DNA from: Polytrichum commune
Lineage: Eukaryota; Streptophyta; Polytrichopsida; Polytrichales; Polytrichaceae
DNA: 64,000 bases
Reading direction: 5' to 3'
Assembly: GCA_950295325.1 (NCBI GenBank)
Contig: OX485804.1
Span: 11,346,001 to 11,410,000 of the forward strand
This document shows positions 3,849 to 49,020 of the stretch, in pieces. The number at the start of each line of letters is the position of its first letter. Within the stretch, counting starts at the first letter, position 1. The notes below the pieces were generated by a model, which worked only from the letters and a program-made list of their open reading frames with translations, was not told the origin of the DNA and did not search any database. A program made the position numbers and the translations under genes.

Positions 3849-5364
3849 GATTTGTACTGCTAATTGTATAGCTTATTAACCTTGATGTTAACAAGGGTGT
3901 GTTCATCCCTTACACTTGTGCTCATCATGAAAGCTAGAGTTTGTGTCTTTGCTTCCTCTATTTGCAGTGATGCATTCATAGTTCTACTTCCAGCAATTGG
4001 AACCAGAGGTTTTTTCATGATTTAATTGACTGGAATGATTCTTTTTACATATGGTAGTTCGGTATAAACTTGAGCTGGGGCTTCATATTGTATGTCTTGA
4101 TCCTCCTTTGGGCTGCAGTATCTGTGGCAAGTGCATTCAGGGTTATGCTTCTTGACAAGTATCAACTCAATACTGATTTTCCAGTGGTGTGGGACTTGTA
4201 ATTGTGCTCATTTGTTGTCTCCTACCTATTGAAGGTACAGTAAAAAATCACGATTATGGTGCACATTTTTCCAAACTTTAAACGATAACCAATTCTTCAA
4301 AATACACATTTTAAGCTGCAAAAAAGCACAAAAATTGTGGCCTGGTTTGAATTCAAGACATTAGTTTGAGGAGCCCCATTTATATCAGAAATTAAATAGC
4401 AGCAACTAATGAGAGCAAGGGGCAATGAGGGTATGGAAGCTAAGGAAACCTAAAATCCTTCAAATTCAATGGCCCTATTAGGTCATGTGTGCATTCTTGA
4501 ACAACCATGACCATTGAATCTAAATTAAAGGATGGATTGAACAATAGAGGCCGTTGCTGTAATATTTCTTTTTTGAATAATAGTAGCATGTATGGAGGAG
4601 AGGAAGGAAAGGAAGGATAGAGGAAAGGAAGGGTGAATTTAATCTCAACACCTCTCCAATGATGTGATGTGGCTGGCACCTGTATAGCATCTTCTTTCTC
4701 TGAATATTTACATGATGTTGGAGCAGTATAAATGACCATCTCTTGTATATACAAGTGTTTCCACGAACCGATCTTCTTTCACGCATCTGCAGCAGTTCCT
4801 CCACAACATGGCTCACTTAAGTTACCCATGTGTTCATCTAGAGCTGAACTCCTTCAGTTTGTCCCTCTGTTTCACAACATTCCAGTTTTCAGTATCATAA
4901 GGCTTCCAGTTCCTCCATGGAGGAGCTTCAAATTCGGATGTTGCGAAGAAATGTAAAAAGTGCACTTGTAGTTCTCACTAGGGGGTCCCAATGTAAGGCA
5001 TTTACATTTTTTGAAAGGGGGCATAACGAGGGGATTAAAACAATCTCTGTTTGGTCATTGGTAGATCCAACCATGGACAACATGATACTTTAAGATGAAC
5101 CTGATCCAACATGTAAATAGTTCCCACTGGCAAGCAGCTTGCGAAATGGAAGGTGGTTGTGCACACATACAAGAGGTCAGCATTCTGCAAGGACTTTCTC
5201 CTTCATGCTAGAGCCATGTGGCCAGGGAGTACTTCAGTTTTGTTATGAGGCAGATCTCTTTCCTTTAATTTTCTTGACATGGGAGAGGGTCACTAGTGCC
5301 AATGAACAAGAAGACAGTTTGTCAATGCCTTTGTTGTCCACCTCACACCATGCTAACTTAGTTC
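3849..5364. other. Intergenic: 3' flank of TOP3B
   Basis: No coding region supported. The first few hundred bases are T-rich and probably hold the TOP3B 3' UTR. A purine-rich run of GGAAA/GGAAGG type lies near 4590-4635. The right part runs into the decayed PPR copy. Confidence 0.5.
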
Positions 5365-5720
5365 AGCTTCACTCCTTGCTGCATCTGCTCGAACAATTTC
5401 AGACCCTCTTCATTGCAACCATACCTGAGATGAGAGCAGTCCATGTCATCACGTTTTTCTGAGGTGCTTTGTCAAAGACTTTCCGTGCATCTACCAAACT
5501 CTAGTATCTGCCATACATAGTAATGAGGGTTGTGCCCACTCTCTCATCAAGCTTATACTTCGCAATCACAATGTGCTCGTGCGGCTTTCCCTTGTCGCTA
5601 TAGTACTGGTCTCTTTGCTGAAACCCTATCAAAATATCCAGAAATCATTGTGGTCCATATAACCACATCCTTTCAAGAGAATTTGTCAAACAATCCTCGA
5701 GCATCCATCAAATACTAGTT
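5365..5720 (-). pseudogene. Decayed tandem copy of PPR repeats
   Basis: Read on the minus strand this stretch matches the 3' half of the neighbouring PPR gene. For example, 5630-5720 matches 6298-6385 and 5365-5530 matches 5938-6100, at clearly high identity by eye. About 200 bases of the parent are missing between the two matching blocks, and no long frame survives. It lies directly downstream of the PPR stop codon in the same orientation, so it is best read as a partial tandem duplication that has decayed. Further weak similarity continues to about 5880. Confidence 0.75.
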
Positions 5721-5872: not shown

Positions 5873-7210
5873 TCACACAGCACCTAACCGGGCATATGCA
5901 TTCATAACCCGGTCCATGGTAACTTCATTTGGCTTCACTCCTTCATGCTGCATCTGCTCGTATAATTTCAGAGCCTCTTCGTTGTGACCATTACAAGAAT
6001 AACCTGAGATGAGTGCAGTCCACGAGATCACATTCTTCTGAGGTATTTTGTCGAAGACTTTCTGTGCATCCACCAAACTCTGGCATCTGCCATACATGAT
6101 AATAAGGGCTGTGCCCACTCTCTCATCCATCTCAAATCCAGCGCTTACAATGTGCCCGTGCAGCCATTTCCCCTGTTGCAGCAGTTCTGGTCTCTTACAT
6201 GCCTTAAGCATGGCGAGGAACGTCGGCATAGTAGGTCTTACACCTGCTTTTCGCATGGATCGGAAAAGGTTGAATGCCTCCTCGCTGAAATCCCTGTCAA
6301 CATATCCAGAAATCATTGTGGTCCATATAATCACATCCTTTCGAGGAAACTTGTCAAACAATTGGCGAGCATCTGCTAAACCCCCACACTTGCAATACAT
6401 GCTCACAAGTGCAGTCTGCACACGCACATCTGACTCCAACCCTAGGGAGATAATCTCCCTGTGAAGTTGCTTCCCTTCCTCTAGATTTTCCTCCCCATTG
6501 CATGTCTTCAGAATGCTTAAAAAAGTGGCTTGACTTCTCTTCACTCCTTCTGCTTCCATCTGCCTAAAAAGCTCGATGGCTTCCTTGCGAAGACCGGTCT
6601 CGAGGTACCGATCAATCATGGCATTCCATAAAATCTCATCCCGCTTTGGAAGTGTGGCGAAGACTTGACGGGCGTCCGTCACACTCCCGCACCTGAAATA
6701 CATGCAGACAAGGGCAGTCCCCACACGAACGTCGAAATCTTTCCGTGCTTTGATAATAAGGCTGTGTGCACGCTTCCCGGATTCTAAATCTGATGGACCA
6801 GAAAATGCCTTCAGGAGGCTTAAGAATGTCAAGGCATTCGGATTTACCCGTTCATCCTGCATCCGGAAAAAGAACGCAAATGCCTCCGAAATACGCCCTT
6901 GCTGAGCTAACCTTGATATCTGTGCATTACAAGAAATGAGGTTCCAAGGGTTCTTTCGTGTGTATGTTATCCCGGCCAACTCCTGATGATGACGATGATG
7001 TTCGTTTGCACCTGGAGAGCTAGGAACTTGTGAAGTCCTATAAGTCGAGCTGAAACTTCTTGTGCATTGAGAATCGACATCCTGAACTCGGCATTCTAGT
7101 AACAAAAGTTTTGCAATTCCCTGCGCTGTTCGGGAGGACATTAAAACAGATTCAGAAGCTCTATTGCAGCTTCTTCCCAGGCGGGCAAGAATCCGCAAAA
7201 CATGCGACAT
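5873..7210 (-). CDS. PLS-type pentatricopeptide repeat protein, probably organellar
   Basis: Intronless gene for a 445-residue PPR protein, an RNA-binding helical-repeat protein used in organelle RNA processing or editing. The frame stays open upstream to 7318, but that codon is GTG; the first ATG is at 7208-7210 and gives an Arg/Ser-rich N-terminus (MSHVLRILARLGRSC) suited to mitochondrial import. Repeats start around residue 90 and show the alternating P, L and S pattern: KDVIIWTTMISGYV, LEEGKQLHREII and VRVGTALVCMYFRCG occur with variants through the protein. The last repeat ends at MNAYARLGAV with no E, E+ or DYW domain, which most PLS proteins carry. Loss of the C-terminus may be linked to the duplication just downstream. 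It may be a truncated but expressed gene or a recent pseudogene; the sequence alone does not decide. Confidence 0.85.
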   Translation of the reverse strand: MSHVLRILARLGRSCNRASESVLMSSRTAQGIAKLLLLECRVQDVDSQCTRSFSSTYRTSQVPSSPGANEHHRHHQELAGITYTRKNPWNLISCNAQISRLAQQGRISEAFAFFFRMQDERVNPNALTFLSLLKAFSGPSDLESGKRAHSLIIKARKDFDVRVGTALVCMYFRCGSVTDARQVFATLPKRDEILWNAMIDRYLETGLRKEAIELFRQMEAEGVKRSQATFLSILKTCNGEENLEEGKQLHREIISLGLESDVRVQTALVSMYCKCGGLADARQLFDKFPRKDVIIWTTMISGYVDRDFSEEAFNLFRSMRKAGVRPTMPTFLAMLKACKRPELLQQGKWLHGHIVSAGFEMDERVGTALIIMYGRCQSLVDAQKVFDKIPQKNVISWTALISGYSCNGHNEEALKLYEQMQHEGVKPNEVTMDRVMNAYARLGAV

Positions 7211-8672
7211 GTTGAAACTACTCCGGAAAGACGAGGATGATGTGCACAACTGAGAACAAATAATTCTTAAATCCACTTTCACACTGCGCCTTCTACTGCT
7301 ATAAAAGAAGAACTGCACAATTCAACCTTAGCCCTAATCCTGTGGATATTCCATCAGATTAATATGCTGCCCAAATTTGCAGCGGTTTGAGCGATTCGCG
7401 CCAGTGGTGTCACTCTAGGAGTTAGAGCTCCGGTACCATATGTGAAATTGTTTACGGGACGATGGCGAGATCGAACCCTGAAATCCTGAAACCTTCTGTT
7501 CACTTTCTCTTTTCTCTTTTCTCTTTCCAAACCCTACAATACTAAAACAGGGGCTAAGGTAAGTGCACCTATAACCGACTCCCAGCCCAATACCGAGTCC
7601 TCCACTCAATGCGAATTCATCGAAGAATGCAGGCCAATGAATGTTGGATGAGCTGTCAGTTATAGGTCTTCAGTTTGACGGTCATGAGTTTCCGGTCCAT
7701 TCACTGACAATAAGTCGGTGTGTCATCACTGCAGGATGTGCGTTTTCACACTCATAGGGCTCGTGCAGACACGGACTTGTGATGTAATTGACATGTTTTA
7801 TAGTCCCTTGGATCCATCATTAAAACTTACAGTGCTGAAAGGTGATTTCCATGTGACACTCAACAAGGTCCTGGCCAATCTGTATACAACATGTGTAAAT
7901 GCCTTCCAAAAACTAGTTATTTTGCATTGAAGCAGACACTATGGTATCTAGTAAGTGCGCTCTGAGCACAGATCTGAAATTGCCCCCTGAAAACTACAGA
8001 TAGAGGAGATGACTATTCTGTATACATGGAAACTTCACACGCAATCAGATCCTTAACCCTAAATCACTATGGCATCTAAACACCCTAAAGAGTATCCCCT
8101 GATGGAGACAGCGAAGTCTGTCCTCCCAACTGCAACATAAAAAATTTCTTCTAGCCTGTACTGCTATACTGTCATCAACTTGATACTCAGCAGCAAGAAC
8201 AATTTCCATGTCTTGTATAGATAATTCTGTAGATAACCTAACCCACTTACAAGAAAACATGCAAATACATCTATCTCCTTGGTCATATTGAAGCAACATT
8301 ACATTGAGCAGTCATAGTATCCCATGAAGACAATCATCAACACTGGGCATTACAATTATTGGCACAAGGAACTGTGACTGCTGATCCTATTTTACTTTCA
8401 TCACTTTATTCTAAGTGATATCCTAGATGAACAATTGAACGTATGAATGTCAGCACAGGCAGTGCTGAAACAAAATCCTAAAAAGCTTCCAGTACATATG
8501 ATGACTCAGATTGCATGGGCTAAAATCCATAAACCCACATTCCACTATCTCTCCTTTACTGTAATTCAGAACAATAAGTAGGGAGGGGGAATTTTAAGAA
8601 AAATGAGAACCAACCCTGCGTAAGTAGCCAACTCTACAATGTATCTAAAATGGTGGTTCCATATGATGCAAA
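7211..8672. other. Intergenic: PPR upstream region and AP-2 mu 3' flank
   Basis: No further gene supported. The left half should hold the PPR promoter and 5' UTR. The right half probably holds the AP-2 mu 3' UTR, since that gene also runs on the minus strand and stops at 8673. I see no clear TATA box or repeat. Confidence 0.4.
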
Positions 8673-13283: not shown

Positions 13284-14530
13284 TTTGATCAAAACTTCTC
13301 CTCCGATCAAACCTCAATCCTTCCTTCGCTGTTTGAGACTCTGCATCCGCTTGTCGCTGAATTTCCTCCGGCTTGCTCCTTCAACAAATGACACTCGTTA
13401 GAGAGCAACAACAATGGAGCGAAGACACCTCTCTTGACCAGGGCTGGGCCGGGTCCAGACCCCGCCCGGCGCTTCGGCGGGTGAGGTAGGCCACTGCAAC
13501 GCTCTTCTCCGCCCGGGGACCCGGCGAAATGGCGGGCGGGGGCTCTTTCCAATGATGAAGGCTCCCCCAACCGAGGGAACATATTCACATGGAGCACCTG
13601 ACGTCACGCCGCGTGACACATTCTTCAGATTATGTGTTTGAATATTCGCCATTTTGTAAACCCCAGGGATTTATTCTCTTTGTATTTAAGGTACTGAGGC
13701 CTTACAGTGACACCTTAAGAGGAAGAAAAATCTATTTCAGGCAGATTAGATAGCTTGGAAAATTTTCAAAAATGTTCCAGAGATTAGCAAATTTATCCAG
13801 ATTTTATATAAAAAAGATATCTCGATAATAAATTCATATGCAACCTATAGGAAATTCGCAAAGTCATTTCAAGGATAGAGCATGTTACTGTCAACTAGGG
13901 GGTTTATTGATTTTGGATTGTTAAGTGAGAATCACCACAAAATCAGTCTTATTGTAGGTGTAAACATTTTGTTAAATGACGGTGTTGTCCCCCTTTAGTG
14001 AATCACTTTTTACACTACCTCGTTGAGCACATAGAGCCCGATCAACCATTGTGATTGGCTAAATTTGGTGTTCTTCTAAAAGTGTTCTTGCATCCTTCTT
14101 ACACCATTATTATGAAAGGCCGAAGTGGTGCTATTTCATGCTTAATGCCACATATGGTTCATCTCTTTTAATAATGATTTACTTGATGACATTGTTGCAC
14201 TCCCTTGTTGACGGCTTAAGGATTAAAATAGGTGTCACCAAAGGGAAGGTGCTACACAAGGACACTATGCTTCATCCCATAGCATTGTGACCACTATACA
14301 TATCGAACGTAACGCTCACCATGTTGCAATGGTTGCTTGCTTGCTATGGTTCTATATATCATTGTGCTCTGTGTCCAATGAAAACGCGACACATAAACGA
14401 GATACGAGATGGTGAGTGCTATGGACTACGTAACGAGCAAGAGGAGAGTGCATGACGCAGAGAGAGAGAAGCAACGCTGACCATGTGATCAGCGTGATTG
14501 GAATGCCCGTTCGACCCACCCTTGGAATTA
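13284..14530. other. Intergenic: AP-2 mu upstream region and unassigned DNA
   Basis: Positions 13430-13560 are strongly GC-rich with many CpG, next to the AP-2 mu start; this is probably its promoter or 5' UTR zone. From 13640 the composition turns AT-rich and I recognise nothing until the 5S-related element. Confidence 0.4.
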
Positions 14531-14589
14531 TACCCTCAGGGCATTATACCAATGGTGCAGGACTACTAACCCCTCTTGGGGTGGGCACT

Positions 14590-14941
14590 ATAGTGACACA
14601 CTATACTAGTTCCTAGCTAGCCACTAGTGCCTTGAGGATACCGGACATGAAATCCCCCCAAAGGTCTTTGAGGCACCCATACAACAAGGTCCAAGGACCC
14701 CCCACCATAGTTGGGTGGACATTGTGGTGAGCACCACACCGGCATGGGGAATAGAACCCACAACCTCCTCATTGGGGGCCATGAGCCCTAACCACCAAGC
14801 CAAGGCCCGTGGTGCCAAAAGACGGAGGCAACACTGAGACTTCCCAGGAGTTCACCCATCCCAGTACAATTCCGGCCCAAAGGCGCTTAACTTCATAGTT
14901 CTGATGGGATCTGGTGTAGTAGCCTTGGTATGACCACATCA
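14590..14941 (-). repeat. Composite 5S rRNA/tRNA-derived retroposon (SINE-like); outer limits uncertain
   Basis: Two Pol III-type modules lie head to tail on the minus strand. First is a full-length 5S rRNA-like unit (14822-14941). A run of four T (14817-14820) follows, then a tRNA-like segment (about 14737-14816) with an A box TGGCTTGGTGG at 14792-14802 and a B box GGTTCTATTCC at 14748-14758, spaced as in tRNA genes. Unassigned sequence of about 150 bp or more follows. Chimeric 5S-tRNA heads are known in some animal SINEs (AmnSINE1), and 5S sequence is known in the LTRs of plant Cassandra TRIM elements. I see no second LTR copy in this window, and the tRNA-like module favours a SINE-like origin. 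The 3' limit is a guess. Confidence 0.6.
14822..14941 (-). rRNA. 5S rRNA-like sequence inside the composite element
   Basis: Read on the minus strand, this 120-nt unit follows plant 5S rRNA end to end: GGTCATACCA near the start, GATCCCATCAGAACT, AAGTTAAGCGCC (box A of the internal promoter), GGATGGGTGA and CTCCTGGGAAGT (box C), and a GTTGCCTCC-type end that pairs with the start. By eye roughly four fifths of positions match. The differences are spread over the unit, so a working ribosomal gene is unlikely; it is best called a 5S-derived module or pseudogene. It is a single copy here, not part of a 5S array. A run of four T follows at once, as at true 5S genes. Confidence 0.7.
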
Positions 14942-17318
14942 CATGCATGCTTGACGCACTATGATAGCAACAACAACACAACACATGGGCAAGAGCTCCA
15001 CTCTCGCCGCCCCTCATTTCACCAAGGAAACCACCTCTCACTTTCGCATGTGGGAAAGGCCTCCAAGACTCCCTGTGATTGCCTCCCACTCTGGAAATCC
15101 AGTGCACAAATTCGCCTGCTCCCTACCCCACCTGAACTATCGAGATGCTTGCATTGACTACTGCAATGCCAGCAAGCGTTCGTTTAGAGCTCCATTCAAG
15201 TTCGCGACTCGGGGGGGCAATGTGTTAAAAAGTTAAGGATATAGGTGCAAACAACCACTATTTTATAGGGGGGTATTACTTTCAATTCTCTTCTTTTTTT
15301 CACATGCTATCATTATGTAAATTTCTACTTTGGGTTAATAGAAAAATGGCTTGCATTACTTATAATTCCAAATTACCTATTATTCCATACCCTATAGTAC
15401 TTTAAAGATGTCCAGTGCCATTTTTTATACCCTATATTACTCTTAAGTCCATTTATAATTTTTTTGCCCCCATGTTTTTATAATACCCTATCATTTGTTC
15501 GCACGTATCTTGCTACTCCAACCAATGACTACCCCCCCCCCCTGAGGTTCGTGATTATCACTGGTAGTTCATCAATGTCCAAGCATTCCACCACGTCGCA
15601 CCTTCTTCCCACTGGGCACCGATCCTACTCTCTCTAATTAATTCAATGCACATAATTCAATCGTGCCGCATGTGCACGCACGTGTTACATGATCAAGTTA
15701 CGATGCATCTACACATTGTCAGCTACTCGCATTTGCTGTCATCGCTCGAATTGATCGCCTTAGCAAACTTTCTGGGCATTGCGAACGTTCATCACTTCGT
15801 AACAATTAACAACTACAGTCTGCTGAACACTCGTGTTACACATAACCCAGAAGTGTCAGGGGAGGATGAGGGCAGAACTGGTCCTCGTGTTTCCAAGTCC
15901 AATTGGTTACATGTTGACATGTTCCGGTTTTCCTTCATCAGGTTGACTCGTCAACTAAAATGAGCCAATTGGTCCGCTCAATTTGATGTAGGGAACGTGA
16001 TGGGAACGTAATGATTGTTAGTTGGTACGAGAGAATGCCCGTTGAGGGTTCTTAAAATACAACTCAACCATTCCAATACACCCACACATGGTTCTAAAAC
16101 CATGCAAATAATCAATTGTAATATGGAAGATCTCATCAATTGTGACAAAAGGATTGTCTCATGATGGTATGTATAACTTCCTCTAAAACGATGGGTCATG
16201 TTCCTGAAGTCTTGAACTTCAACTGGTTATTCCTCAACCGGTTCTCCCCATTCATTGCAAGCCACATGGGGTATCTAGAGAACTCCACAAACTCATTTCC
16301 TTAGACAATTAATAAGCTTTTGCACGTAATCTGGTGGAGTCCTGTGAGTTTCATCGGACGATCGTGATCACCTGGGATATATTCATCGAACCTGTTGGGC
16401 TTCCCTGCGAATTTTCCCTGCCCAAAGTTTTTTTTTCGGGCACTTTGAAGAAAAAATAAACTTCCATTCCCCATACACAATGATCTCCATGAAGGAATTC
16501 TATATTTACAAAATTAAACATGATATCCAGGTTGTATTGGTGGGCCCCATAAAAACAACACTCGTACTATACCGCAACCATAAATTTGGATGGAAAAAAA
16601 AACAACAACATGCTTAGTTATAAGAGTCTGCCCAATATTTCCATCAACCCGATTTGGGAAGGTAGGGGTTAAATGTTGTAAATTATGCGAGCCACAAACA
16701 CTTACAACATCCCAATGTACTAGTAAGGGATGTTCGACGCTCTGAGATGTTGGGGGGGCAGCCATAGGCTAGGAGCCACTCCATCATGGATAGGGGTATT
16801 TGTATGTCCTGAGTCACAACAAAGTGGCTATAATATGCCTACCATGTTCATTGGCATCCCCTTAAGGACTAGGGAGTCAGAAACGGTATAGGCAGAATTA
16901 CATGGCCATGTGTGAACTTGAGCCATCACGAGATGGTTCTCCATGTACGTAGCATCAAAAAAAATAGCCTTGGTTTTCTTGCCTGGCTCGTTAGGTCAAT
17001 AATAAAAAGGCCTAGGATGACGCGGGGAGGTTTTGGAATTTGAACCAAGTCCATAATTGATGGACAAATTCAATGCTCGTTGACCACATGGAGAAGGAGT
17101 TTAAAATAGCTTGAACAACTTTGAATATGACCCGTCTAACTTATCACACTTAAATTATGCCTAGATTAACAAATCTATCTCGATTATGGTCAAAAGATCT
17201 CCTGATGCCTTCATCATCCTAAGAATAGGTCAAAGAACCTCAAATGTGTCCCAACTAACTTAGAAAGCCTCACTTAAGCAAAATAGCTTAGATAATTTAC
17301 GTGTGTTGAAACAACTTC
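14942..17318. other. Gene-free DNA, largely unassigned
   Basis: No exon-like frame or known domain. A C-run lies at about 15532-15542, and short repeated TACCCTATA-type phrases occur between 15370 and 15490. I see no paired terminal repeats. Confidence 0.35.
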
Positions 17319-17690
17319 GTGTGAGTTTCCATGTAGACTGCTCACCCACTAGATTCTAAATAATAATGGGTTGGAGGTGTTCTCATGTAGATAAGTATGA
17401 GTTGTCAACCAACCACGTTATGATGGTCTATTAGAATGCGGAGGGCCTTGGATATGAGCCGCTAGACTTCCATGCGCCACTATAACACTTTTTAACCTAC
17501 AAGTGTTGATCATTGAAGGATTGAAGACTGGTTTTAGGAGGAGGAGGTTAGTAGGTGGGCCCAAATTTGAGAAGATGAGAGTAGTTGGCACATACAAACC
17601 CTACCCCATCATATTCCATCTACGTTTGGGCGGGTTGTCCTTATTCCCACTAGAATTTGGTGCGCGAGTGGCCTACATGGAAACTCGCCC
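17319..17690 (+). mobile_element. MITE family A, copy 1
   Basis: Inverted ends: GTGAGTTTCCATGTAG at the left and CTACATGGAAACTCGCCC at the right, with a second matching stretch inside (CCACTAGATTCTA against TAGAATTTGGTG). The interior matches, in reverse orientation, the copy at 36390-36803, including the stretch around GGAGGAGGAGGTTAGTAGGTGGGC. Length about 370 bp, no coding capacity. TIR and likely TTA-type target site suggest a PIF/Harbinger (Tourist-like) MITE. Confidence 0.7.
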
Positions 17691-19998: not shown

Positions 19999-20009
19999 TT
20001 AACCCTTAA

Positions 20010-20515
20010 CTTCATGAGAGGCATGTTTTGGGCTTATGAACGATTCTACAAGGCAAATTCATCCAAAAGGAAGGTGCTAGGAAGGCTAGAATGGGTATCA
20101 TTATGTTATGATTGAAATTGTCTTGTCAATGGCGATGATTCCATTTCAGTATGAAAAGATGGTTGTTCACAAAATATTTTTAACATTCCCCTTTGTTGAT
20201 GTACTACTATATGTGGTAACCTCATATTATTTTGATTGAAAATTGTCAAAATTTTATGGACTTATTTTCTTACCTCATACTGTATATCTATTTTAAATAT
20301 AATATTGGAATTTTTGAATCTTATTTTATTGCATATATTTTCACAATTTCTCAAATTTTAATGATTCTAAATTGATTATTAACAAATCATGATAATTTAT
20401 AAGTATTGCGATTGTATTGATGTGATCTCAAAATCATTAGCAGTAACATTTCTATTCAGTGCAATAAAAATTGAGCTCTAGAAAGCTTACTTTTAGATGA
20501 TCTAATGAAACCACA
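20010..20515 (-). repeat. Dispersed repeat E, copy 1
   Basis: In reverse orientation this matches 48165-49020: for example AAGCTTACTTTTAGATGATC (about 20483-20502) against 48190-48225, and the block around 20115-20180 against 48850-48905. The second copy holds about 350 bp not present here. No coding capacity. Class unknown; ends not clear. Confidence 0.65.
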
Positions 20516-20519
20516 ATAC

Positions 20520-22090
20520 AGTCCAAGAAGTCAAGGGTTAAACACTCTTCAACCTTTGTCACAAGTATGTGAGACTTGGAAGGTCCGAGATGGCCTTAAA
20601 TTAAAGGGTGATAGTGTAGAGGTACCCAATTCCGAATGGAGTGGTTGGCAATTTGGTTCTTGCTGTGAAATCTTCTCTCTACTTGACGGAAAAAAACCAG
20701 CTAGGTAGTAGGAAGCCAAGAGCCCACCTACCGCAAGGTGGGCAGTAAGCCCCACCCTACACTAAGAGGATTCTTGAGCAGGATAGGGCCAACAGGCTCA
20801 AATTCATGTCGGATTGCCCAAAGTTGGTTATTTATTTATTTTCTAAGACTTGGATGTCAGTGCCTTTTAAAAGAATTGGTTGATAGGGAGTAGTTGATGT
20901 GAACAAAAGTTTGGGAGCTTGTGACATGAGACAAAAAAAATTTACAATCAACTCTTAAGAATCTAACAACTCATAAAACTACTATTTTGGTTTTATTCAC
21001 CCTTATTTTGCAAGTTTTCTTTCATGGTGAGGTAATAGTGCAAATCTTCAAAAGGTATCCTACTAACATTGCTACTTAATGTTATTATATGGTATGATAT
21101 TTTATACTACACATTTCATATATGATGTGAACCAAACAAAATCCAAACCACTTCCGAATCTTAGACTGATCTCTAAGTCAAACCAATTGCACACATGTCC
21201 AACTTTAAATTAATTTGTTGTTCATCCAAAAGTTAACAATATAATTCATTAACATTTTCTGACATGATTACATGTTTTCATCCTTATGCTCACATAACAG
21301 CCACAACCCAACACATGAAAGTATATGGATGTGATTCATTTAAAAAAAAAATGGGAACCTATATATTGATTTGTGTGTGGTACAGTGAGGATCAAAGACC
21401 TAATACCACACAAAAACGTACTCAAAAGAGATTGGACTATTTCTTTGATTTCTATCAACTTACTCCACACTCAATACACAGTGTACATAAATGTGAAGAC
21501 TTATGTATTCAATTAAGGAATCAACAAACATGCACTTCCAATAACCAAAACTAAATAAAAGGAGATCTTACTTTTGATGATGGTTCATTTGAGGTTTACT
21601 ATTGCAACACAAGTTCTATTGTATATAAATAATGGACGGGATTCGGAAAGCATAAAAGACAACACCAAATAACACCCATGTACCTCAGTTCGTATTTCAT
21701 TAAGATAGACAACCCTTATTCAACTAGTTTTCTTTTTAGAGTGATATGTAAATTAGTTTGGCTTTAAGAACGGATACAAAAAGACATGTATCTAAAAGAG
21801 ATTGGATTGTGTGCTCAAAATAAGATAATCATTCTAGATTCAATCATAGGAGAAGTGGGCTAGTTGGAGAAAGTAACCATTTAAGACCCATCTACCTTAC
21901 ACCCGTATTTGATGACCCTAATAGTTCCATGGAGACTCCTGCGAACATCCAATTAGATGTTGCCACGTGAAGACCAGTGGTCGACTCATACTCTGGTTCA
22001 GGCCCGGAGTGCCTTGCCGGGTATGGACGTTTCGCAACTCAGGGAGAGAAGAAACAAAAGCCACAGCAGGAGCGTTTTTTTGAATAACAA
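20520..22090. other. Gene-free AT-rich DNA upstream of RecA
   Basis: A small perfect hairpin GCCCACCT/AGGTGGGC lies near 20722-20744. Positions 21780-21898 resemble, in reverse, the left end of repeat family D (see 37285). Otherwise nothing recognised. The last few hundred bases should contain the RecA promoter. Confidence 0.4.
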
Positions 22091-35690: not shown

Positions 35691-36389
35691 TACTCAAATG
35701 CTCTTATCCTCCTTCAAACCTAAACCTTAAACCCCTATTTTGACACAACAAAACAAATCGGCGAGAGAAGAAAACCTCCAAACCTACCGAGGTCGGATCA
35801 GGTATTCTATATCCCACCAAGACTATAGGTTGCTTAACATCATCTCCTTCTTCATCACCACAATTAACCTAAACCCATCATCACTGATACCACCACCCGG
35901 GTCCTCTACCGCATTCCACCTTGTCTGCATCCAACAAATTGTTATTCCCTTGAAGAATTACAATTGAGAGGTAACCGCAACTGGTCTATTCCTCTGAGAA
36001 GATTTGATTGTCTGAAGCCCCGTGCATTTTCAGCTGCTTTTGAAATCCTACAATTCGTTGTCCTTCAGCAATCCAGAGCCTCCATGTGAAAGACCAAGTC
36101 ACCAAGGTATTGAAGAGACTCACCGATTTTCACAACTCGATATATCCCATATCCTTGTGCATGCGGTAGTTTATACTTAAGTATATATAGCGGCGGCTTC
36201 AGATTTCAAACATTAAAAGGGTCGGTTGGCTAAATATGCCACGCAGGTCCTTGGACCTGTGCTGTATGGACTATCAAGACATATGGCCGACACTATTTTT
36301 GGGCCTCTATTGGGTTGGCACGCTCTGCCGACCCTACTAACTAAAAGCTTTGAATCAGGATTCGGAGACGGTAAAGAAATGTACATAGT
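35691..36389. other. RbfA upstream region
   Basis: Should hold the RbfA promoter and 5' UTR. A TATATATAG stretch lies near 36183. Nothing else recognised. Confidence 0.35.
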
Positions 36390-36803
36390 AAGAGTTACTT
36401 TTCATGTTTGCCTCTCGCCTACCAGATTCTAGTGTGGACATGGACAAATGTAGAGGGTATGTGGTGGATTAGGGTTCGTGTGTGCCAACTAGCTACTCTT
36501 ATCTTCTCAAATTGAGCCCACCTACTCACCTCCTCCTCCTGGTTACTAAGGATGGAGTTCTAGACCAACACTGGTTCTCTTGAGTCTTCAACCAGTCTCA
36601 AGCCTTCAGTGGCCGGCACTTATAAGTTAAAGAGTTTTTAGTAGGTCCATGGAAGTCTAGCTGCCCATGTCCATGGCCCTCCGCATTCTAATAGGCTGCC
36701 AAAATGTGGTTGATCGGCGGCTTGTGCTTAACAACATGCGAACTCCTCCGACCCACTATTATCTAGAATCTAGTGGGCAAGACGCCTACATGGAAACTCA
36801 CCC
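36390..36803 (-). mobile_element. MITE family A, copy 2 (inverted relative to copy 1)
   Basis: The left end AGAGTTACTTTTCATG is diverged and the right end CTACATGGAAACTCACCC is well kept. The interior is the reverse complement of 17319-17690, for example CCCACCTACTCACCTCCTCC at about 36517 against about 17541 in copy 1. Roughly 410 bp, non-coding. Confidence 0.7.
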
Positions 36804-37284
36804 TAATTTAGTCTCACTTAATGCAAAGTATCTGGATGCAAACCAGGTCCTTCAATTAAGTTGAACTTTGAGTTGCCTGTGAATTGAAAACTTAATGGTG
36901 AAGTACTTGGAAGCTTACTAACTCGTCATTGCACTCTCATAAAAATGGCTCAGCTGTTTCCAAGTGAAGTTGAGGTAGTAGAGCCCAAATTTGTGTGTTT
37001 GAGATTTGATTTTCTTATTTCTTTGATGGGCGGGGAGTCCAAGTCCTTGTTGTTTTACTGGTGCAAGAATGTTTCAAAGAGACAATATCATCTCAAATGG
37101 CAACAAGATTGGGTTGTTCTACTGCAGGTGAAATGTTAAAACCGGAGGAACAAGAAAGTCGTAACTTCAGCTGGATGTCCTCTAATTGTAGAGAAATGCA
37201 CTAATGTGCAGATCGTAAACATTCTCAATCGACATGAATAACATTGGCCTTATTGTAACCTAGAGATATTAGTGGCACCTCACA

Positions 37285-48108: not shown

Positions 48109-48164
48109 TTACTCTTACCAATGATGGCTTTTACATTAACCCTAACCCTTAACCCTTAATTTCC

Positions 48165-49020
48165 TAGAGAGTATTGCGGTTTCATTAGATCATCTAAAAA
48201 GTAAACTTTCTAAAGCTCGATTTCATTTTACTTAAAAGTAAATTGGTTGCTAATAATATTAAGTTCACATTAATACAATGACAATACTTAGTGAATTTTA
48301 TGATTTGTTTACAATCAATTTAAAATCGTTAAACTTCAAGAAATTATGACAAATATATGCCATAAATTTTAAGTGCAAACTTTCATGATTGTATTAAGAA
48401 TATATGTAAATTGAGGTAAGAAAAAGGATCCATATAAAATTGATAATTTCCAATCAAAGTAATGTGATTGTACTATATATATAAAGGAAAACAAACTCTA
48501 AACTAAATATAGGAAACTTATGTCATATGGTATTTTATGTCATTGTTGTAACTTTCATATGACACTTCTTATGAATAAGTGAACAAATTTTGTCATGGAT
48601 GATAGATGAGTTCATCCATTGTACAAAACCCTACCTTCTCTTGTCAGCAACTTGTGATAAAATATGTCATAGATGATTGAATTTTGGATGAAAAATCACT
48701 TGGTAAGTGACAGTAATTGCAACACTCTAAATCCATAATTCCCCTAAAAATTTAAAGTGCAATTAGTATTGAGCAAGACAATTAGAATTGTTGACATTAA
48801 ACATCATATTTAGTGTAGTTCATTCTTGACTTTAAAATTTTATTGTGAATAGCCATCTTTTCATTTGGGAATGGGATCATCATCATTTACAAGAAAATCT
48901 CATGAGAAACGTAATGATACCTATTGTGCCCTTCCTAGTACCTCCTTTTTGGGTGACTTTGCCTCCCATAGTCATTCATAAGCTTGAAATAGGACCTCTC
49001 AAGAAGTTAAGGGTTGAATC
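48165..49020 (+). repeat. Dispersed repeat E, copy 2
   Basis: Collinear with the reverse complement of 20010-20515 at both ends, with about 350 bp extra in the middle (about 48480-48840). A CCCTAACCC-type telomere-like run lies just to the left (48138-48160). Non-coding. Confidence 0.65.

Follow-up and report, generated by a model that had tools for sequence, protein, structure and literature searches.

What joins a 5S rRNA sequence directly to a tRNA-type segment in the stretch of Polytrichum commune DNA analysed here (the window, 64,000 nucleotides in full)? A first-pass annotation had seen a full 5S-like unit followed by tRNA-type A and B boxes in the right order, and had proposed the pair as a candidate composite plant retroposon. 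The two modules and their order are confirmed, on the minus strand (78.9 bits in Rfam; 727 genomic matches for the head of the tRNA-type part and 29 for the start of the 5S unit, against 0 in both controls). The retroposon proposal holds in part. A single insertion, with a duplication around 5S and SINE together, is the best explanation of the locus; a multi-copy family is not what we find, the exact junction occurring once and the composite at one of 43 5S-like loci.

The composite consists of a full-length 5S copy at 14942-14817, followed with zero spacer by a complete tRNA-type SINE at 14816-14460, all on the minus strand (Table 1). We name the family of this 3' part SINE-A. The interval originally annotated, 14737-14941, covers the 5S unit and the SINE head, and the SINE, starting at 14816(-), continues past it to 14460. 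Rfam matches 5S_rRNA at 14823-14941(-) over model positions 1-120 (78.9 bits, gathering score 38). By comparison with the genome's own 5S genes, we set the limits of the copy from G 14942 to the CTTTT at 14817. Since it includes this CTTTT end, also present in the 5S loci L036 and L037, the copy resembles a transcript that kept its terminator U-run rather than a trimmed 5S.

Ten of 120 positions differ between the window 5S copy and the consensus of six gene-like 5S loci. One of the differences lies in box C and none in box A; another is at nt 75, which we take to be near the intermediate element. The TATA-like ATATAA that several gene-like copies carry about 30 nt upstream is missing here. 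The composite has not multiplied, and we expect it to be silent. In the SINE, the A-box-like TGGCTTGGTGG and the B-box-like GGTTCTATTCC start 44 nt apart, each one mismatch away from the A- or B-box consensus. ARAGORN reports no tRNA gene at this segment, so the term tRNA-like rests on the boxes and on the context of the family.

Table 1 The 5S/SINE-A composite and its flanks, in the order in which they are read on the minus strand.
Feature	Position	Strand	Evidence
Upstream target-site duplication copy, TGCGTCAAGCA	14948..14958	-	10/11 match to 14449-14459
Five extra nt, TGCAT, from duplication to 5S start	14943..14947	-	Sequence; untemplated or target-derived
Full-length 5S rRNA copy, 126 nt, CTTTT terminator end	14817..14942	-	Rfam and gene-like consensus
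5S box A, AGTTAAGCGCCT, 5S nt 51-62	14881..14892	-	Identical to gene-like consensus; box as defined in PMC7215508
5S box C, GGGATGGGTGAAC, 5S nt 81-93	14850..14862	-	C-to-A at nt 92 relative to gene-like copies; box as defined in PMC7215508
Junction, 5S TTTT then GGCACC, the 5' end of SINE-A	14816..14817	-	18-mer junction once in genome, 0 mismatches
SINE-A, full length, 357 nt	14460..14816	-	4.5% (16/357) from consensus of 29 other copies
A-box-like TGGCTTGGTGG	14792..14802	-	Sequence; one mismatch from consensus
B-box-like GGTTCTATTCC	14748..14758	-	Sequence; one mismatch from consensus
3' terminal hairpin, ACGCTGA/TCAGCGT, before pyrimidine tail	14474..14495	-	Fold of window copy
Pyrimidine-rich tail, TGCTTCTCTCTCTC	14460..14473	-	Family consensus TTCTTCTCTCTTCTC
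Downstream target-site duplication copy, TGCGTCATGCA	14449..14459	-	Match to upstream copy

Elsewhere in the window, a U11 spliceosomal RNA matches its full model at 36214-36339 (+) with 68.9 bits. Starting 60 bp downstream of it is a 410-bp repeat, 36399-36809, whose inverted relative, at 17313-17683, shows 69% identity; the regions 20001-20541 and 48149-49015 have two inverted repeat pieces in common, at about 76% identity. A PPR protein of 481 aa is encoded at 5873-7318 (-), and a diverged direct repeat, 5348-5615 / 5914-6196, overlaps the end of its gene. The PPR protein and the U11 snRNA are consistent with a land plant.

We searched the source genome, 407.8 Mb in 64 contigs, of which seven measure 42-78 Mb and the other 57 total 1.7 Mb. 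With up to three mismatches, the 31-mer of the SINE-A head has 727 matches in it (reversed control, 0). A 521-bp query gave 41 matches (best 40 of 1498 candidates scored). Among the 40 other scored matches, 34 start at query positions 145-147, at the first base of the window SINE or within 2 nt of it; the remaining starts are at 140, 141, 144, 161, 169 and 297. On the 5S side of the query, none of the 40 extends by more than 5 nt.

We read the flanks of 30 copies, including the window's own, of this family of at least 727 head matches, and in all 29 other loci the 5' flank is not 5S. In 20 of 28 copies the 5' and 3' flanks share a duplication with a score of at least 8, compared with 17 of 756 mismatched pairs; L026, which offers no head anchor, was left out of this test. 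Seventeen of the 20 duplications end 0-4 nt before the element, and the rest show a gap of 5 nt, a gap of 6 nt and an overlap by 1. The family ends in a hairpin and a TTCTTCTCTCT-like tail; in its consensus, the stretch of the window hairpin has one changed position, in one arm. The SINE-A half has the attributes of a tRNA-derived SINE: boxes in the head, each with one mismatch, a fixed 5' end, multiple copies and target-site duplications. SINE-A is a mobile family, putatively mobilised by a LINE.

The exact 18-mer spanning the 5S/SINE-A junction has one genomic occurrence at 0 mismatches. Up to three mismatches, it has 654 places (control, 134). Among the first 100 of these, which were listed, the single place with one mismatch, L018, has no 5S in its flank, and those with two mismatches are mostly copies of another sequence, TCTTTTGGCACTACCGGC. 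From the other side, a 5S query gave 32 genomic matches, with all 32 candidates scored, and the 24-mer of the 5S 5' end, at up to three mismatches, has 29 places (control, 0), all within the loci read. Three 5S searches yielded 43 distinct 5S-like loci that we read (29 + 8 + 6), one of the 32 matches, C4:16818818, being left out. BLAST of SINE-A against the 43 (E 0.01) finds only L043, the window locus. The many copies sharing the 5S-tRNA join that would have supported a SINE were not found, and the composite is a single copy within these searches. A joint that is unique or independently formed, and not shared by a family, is expected of a chimeric retrocopy made by LINE-mediated template switching, and the window joint is of this kind.

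Was this copy inserted at once or in two steps? The sequence TGCGTCAAGCA, ending 5 nt before the 5S, matches TGCGTCATGCA, the first 11 bases after the SINE tail, at 10 of 11 positions. Our position rule asks that the match start at most 1 nt from the tail and end at most 6 nt from the 5S. Under this rule, 38 of 200,000 random window pieces are as good, and a duplication around the SINE alone is absent, the flank at the 5S end scoring 3 against 8 for the composite. Without the rule, about 1% of random pieces reach an equal score (47/4000 and 26/4000), and the upstream flank also matches a site inside the SINE at 10/11; the case for the duplication thus rests on its position. That a target-site duplication encloses 5S and SINE together, the composite having been inserted as one unit, is the best explanation. 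Copies of two different transcripts, directly joined in the same orientation and with one target-site duplication around the whole, are the features of a LINE-mediated template-switch chimeric retrocopy. The two halves diverge by 10/120 (8.3%) for 5S and 16/357 (4.5%) for SINE-A, a difference that is not significant (Fisher p 0.16); nominally the value of the 5S half is nearly double, as would also be seen if the 5S copy were the older.

The window is not the only place where 5S is fused to a retroelement. For 23 5S loci that are not gene-like, one of them the window's, we made alignments with the consensus of the 5S genes and with the 3' end of a LINE that we call LINE-B. The other 20 of the 43 (the gene-like L031, L032 and L034-L038; L033; L041, L044 and L047; the diverged L050 and L052-L059) stood outside this alignment, and none of them is a BLAST match of the LINE-B end. 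Twelve of the 23 continue in sense into LINE-B 3' ends. Nine do so clearly (L042, L045, L049, L051, L080, L083, L087, L088 and L104) and are also BLAST matches at E 0.001; three are weak (L039, L040 and L089), seen by the looser alignment alone with scores of 31, 41 and 37, against 15-22 in loci without LINE-B. In L051, about 280 nt separate the 5S from the LINE-B match. The start point in LINE-B varies among the fusion loci, except between L039 and L040, which have their flanks in common and are likely one event duplicated. The other eleven comprise the window, with SINE-A, and L046, L048, L084, L085, L086, L102, L103, L105, L106 and L107, with a partner other than LINE-B or unassigned.

The 5S part starts at nt 1 in 20 of the 23 loci. 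Eight loci carry it up to nt 117-126; in the other fifteen it is partial, with its end at nt 56-59 in eight of these (L080, L083, L087, L088, L089, L102, L104 and L107). The probability of this clustering, p = 1e-7, is rough: it supposes a uniform null over 86 positions and independence, for an interval picked post hoc and alignment ends accurate to a few bases. Whole-unit duplications stand directly after the tail in L039/L040 (12/12) and L080 (13/13). Others are found in L048 (11/11, with a partner that is not LINE-B) and L083 (10/10), both partly tail-like TTC, and in L042 (10/11), L051 (7/7, short) and L046 (18/22, by our own count). The same flank test gave no convincing duplication in L045, L049, L084, L085, L086, L087, L088, L089 or L102-L107; by eye, only candidates of 5 nt are seen in L045 and L104.

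A further fusion, L033, lies on C2, 247 kb from the window copy. Its 5S, nearly intact with 1/120 differences, runs into coding sequence of another LINE family. For a 148-aa piece of that sequence the best other copies show 93% identity, and frames extend to 2,924 aa. L033 is probably a young 5S/LINE chimera; the flank test found no duplication there, and the element extends past the locus.

Some 5S-like loci are arranged in other ways. In L106, around base 87, 5S nt 1-48 are followed by an overlapping 5S-like stretch, by eye a partial 5S-5S dimer. The gene-like copy L044 (C1:52.92 Mb) is split after about nt 25 by about 1.15 kb. At three dispersed places (L050/L055, L053/L057 and L058), diverged 5S-like sequences lie in pairs, head to tail and 182-184 bp apart; they may represent an old array or a different repeat that bears 5S. 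The gene-like loci (L031, L032, L038 and L035-L037) are few in number and scattered, ATATAA stands some 30 nt upstream of them, and no large 5S array appears among the scored matches (47 of 15430 candidates scored).

The nature of LINE-B follows from its surroundings. We had considered the recurring partner a second SINE ('SINE-B'), and rejected this on the sequence upstream of two copies and on the placement of tails relative to ORF ends, which indicate the 3' end of a LINE. The 5' boundary shared by LINE-B matches probably reflects a truncated query copy, because an open frame in L101 runs across it. The tail pattern has 397 places (control, 0). Of 100 listed tails, compared with 85 of the 150 listed ORF ends, 18 lie 173-202 bp after the conserved ORF end on the same strand, and none lies on the opposite strand within 800 bp of one. 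In the wider family the frames around the LINE-B ORF end are as long as 2,169 aa, and copies are cut, by eye, at differing 5' points. It is for this tail-ORF spacing, the long frames and the variable 5' cuts that we call it a LINE. Pfam gave no domain in two LINE ORF pieces, and by eye no RVT_1 match stands beside a LINE-B end among the 150 matches listed; ORF length, truncation and tails suggest that LINE-B would carry a reverse transcriptase.

We consider it probable, at roughly 80%, that the composite is a chimeric retrocopy from one LINE-driven insertion, with a template jump from SINE-A RNA to a 5S transcript. A LINE reverse transcriptase would begin target-primed reverse transcription on the SINE-A RNA through its 3' hairpin and pyrimidine tail, and would copy it up to the 5' end. 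From there, an end-to-end jump would take it to a nascent 5S rRNA transcript, at the 3' U-tail, and it would copy this RNA to its own 5' end. The cDNA would finally be joined at the target, leaving the 11-bp duplication around the pair. We infer the jump itself: a full-length 5S in the same sense, a joint at natural ends and one duplication fit end-to-end template jumping during target-primed reverse transcription, and the 5S-LINE fusions elsewhere in the genome support such a reading of the window composite.

The same structure could have been assembled in two events, a SINE-A copy having landed, by coincidence, right on the 3' T-run where an older 5S retropseudogene ended, close to what the first-pass annotation had offered as the refuting alternative. 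The join does occur only here within these searches, the 5S half is nominally the more diverged, and the absence of a duplication around the SINE is in itself a weak argument, as 8 of 28 SINE-A copies also lack one scoring 8. However, the insertion would have to hit the exact base after the terminator, the duplication encloses the pair and abuts the tail as few random pieces do, the SINE alone has no adjoining duplication, and other 5S loci show a one-event structure with LINE ends; we therefore regard two events as unlikely. Alternatively, Pol III could have read through from a 5S gene into a SINE-A downstream of it, or the two RNAs could have been ligated, and the resulting 5S-SINE-A RNA been retroposed as one template. 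This predicts the same single insertion with its duplication and the same DNA, and ligation is a published alternative for U6/LINE-1 (PMC13174262) that would fit the window DNA as well. The intact CTTTT end speaks against this origin, and read-through would call for a source locus, of which we saw none: SINE-A is absent from the other 42 of the 43 5S-like loci read. We find this origin quite improbable.

Even less credit is due to the idea that the composite belongs to a plant SINE family, so far undescribed, whose double head would combine 5S and tRNA. Both modules are present and in order, and a moth family, HaSE3, combines 5S with tRNA-derived SINE sequence (PMC3272025). Such a family would nevertheless have many dispersed copies with the same joint, where we find one junction at 0 mismatches (near-junctions being the first 100 listed of 654), one of 43 5S-like loci with SINE-A, and 0 of 40 other scored SINE-A matches that cover over 5 nt of the 5S side. 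A Cassandra-type TRIM, or a solo LTR or fragment of one, deserves a thought since, for plant retroelements with 5S modules, Cassandra is the group that we met in print, and the annotation had named paired copies and a primer-binding site as its signs. We found neither two 5S-bearing LTRs, nor a PBS, nor a short duplication of the LTR type. Rfam reports a single 5S unit in the 64-kb window; the segment has no repeat partner in the 10-20 kb part of the window or in the window as a whole; the PBS motif TGGTATCAGAGC, as given in PMC7215508, has 0 matches with up to two mismatches on both strands of 13500-16500. The unit ends, moreover, in a SINE tail with a 3' hairpin, and its duplication is of 11 bp against the 5 bp described for related TRIMs (PMC10886601). 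A Cassandra origin is hardly credible. The chimeric retrocopy is thus the reading we retain.

Comparable chimeras have been described outside plants. As far as the published description goes, the closest structural precedent in print is the WEIRD-MgSINE chimera of Magnaporthe, a single bipartite case with 12-bp repeats, which like the MINE elements is explained by a template switch in LINE reverse transcription (PMC2104539). These elements and ours share a non-coding RNA at the 5' side of a SINE or LINE and repeats of 10-20 bp around their whole unit; the fungus has WEIRD RNA and a 5'-truncated SINE, whereas the plant has 5S rRNA and a full-length SINE. Human 5S/LINE-1 and U6/LINE-1 chimeras, with target-site duplications of 7-17 bp in 20 of 27, share the fusion of 5S rRNA to the 5' side of LINE copies (PMC13174262). 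In the human chimeras, as described there, the 5S pieces are as a rule antisense, with truncation points at nt 46 and 90. Those found here are in sense and, at 20 of the 23 loci, begin with nt 1; they end either at full length or, for 8 of the 15 partial ones, at nt 56-59. In HaSE3, for which a template switch was proposed, 5S replaces the tRNA head in a family, while the window composite keeps both heads in one copy (PMC3272025).

Among plant elements, Cassandra TRIMs also place a 5S module in a retroelement (PMC10853983, PMC7215508). As described, Cassandra is an LTR element with a 5S unit per LTR and a PBS; the second unit and the PBS were not found here. It is reported from monocots, dicots and ferns and not from gymnosperms (PMC10853983), and one proposal derives it from a 5S-headed SINE inserted into an LTR (PMC10886601). 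The plant SINE tool AnnoSINE, by its description, lists 5S among possible SINE heads in general (PMC8825457), and template switching has been invoked for a few copies of the Arabidopsis Sadhu elements (PMC2848041). We found no plant 5S-LINE or 5S-SINE chimera in the titles and abstract openings of the open-licence literature, which is weak evidence of absence. Such chimeras are already known in mammals, fungi and insects, and the window case is a plant version of them.

The window composite is of moderate interest, mainly through the series of 5S fusions to which it belongs. In the usual view, a SINE is born when a LINE-compatible tail becomes joined to a Pol III RNA; the window locus and the other 5S fusions give a plant view of that joining step, with 5S rRNA as donor, before amplification. 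Their joints, at full length or at nt 56-59, can be counted and compared with human 5S/LINE-1, which raises the question what sets the landing site: the RNA, 5S fragments or the enzyme. In addition, the fusions show that 5S promoters can become dispersed in a plant by a route other than LTR elements. Altogether, we tentatively suggest, at somewhat short of even confidence, that LINE machinery in this genome repeatedly adopts 5S rRNA in sense as a second template, landing either on the U-tail of the whole transcript or at a favoured site, nt 56-59. It may in this way keep making 5S-headed retrocopies, including a double-promoter 5S + tRNA composite at birth: a plant SINE nursery, with landing rules unlike those of human LINE-1.
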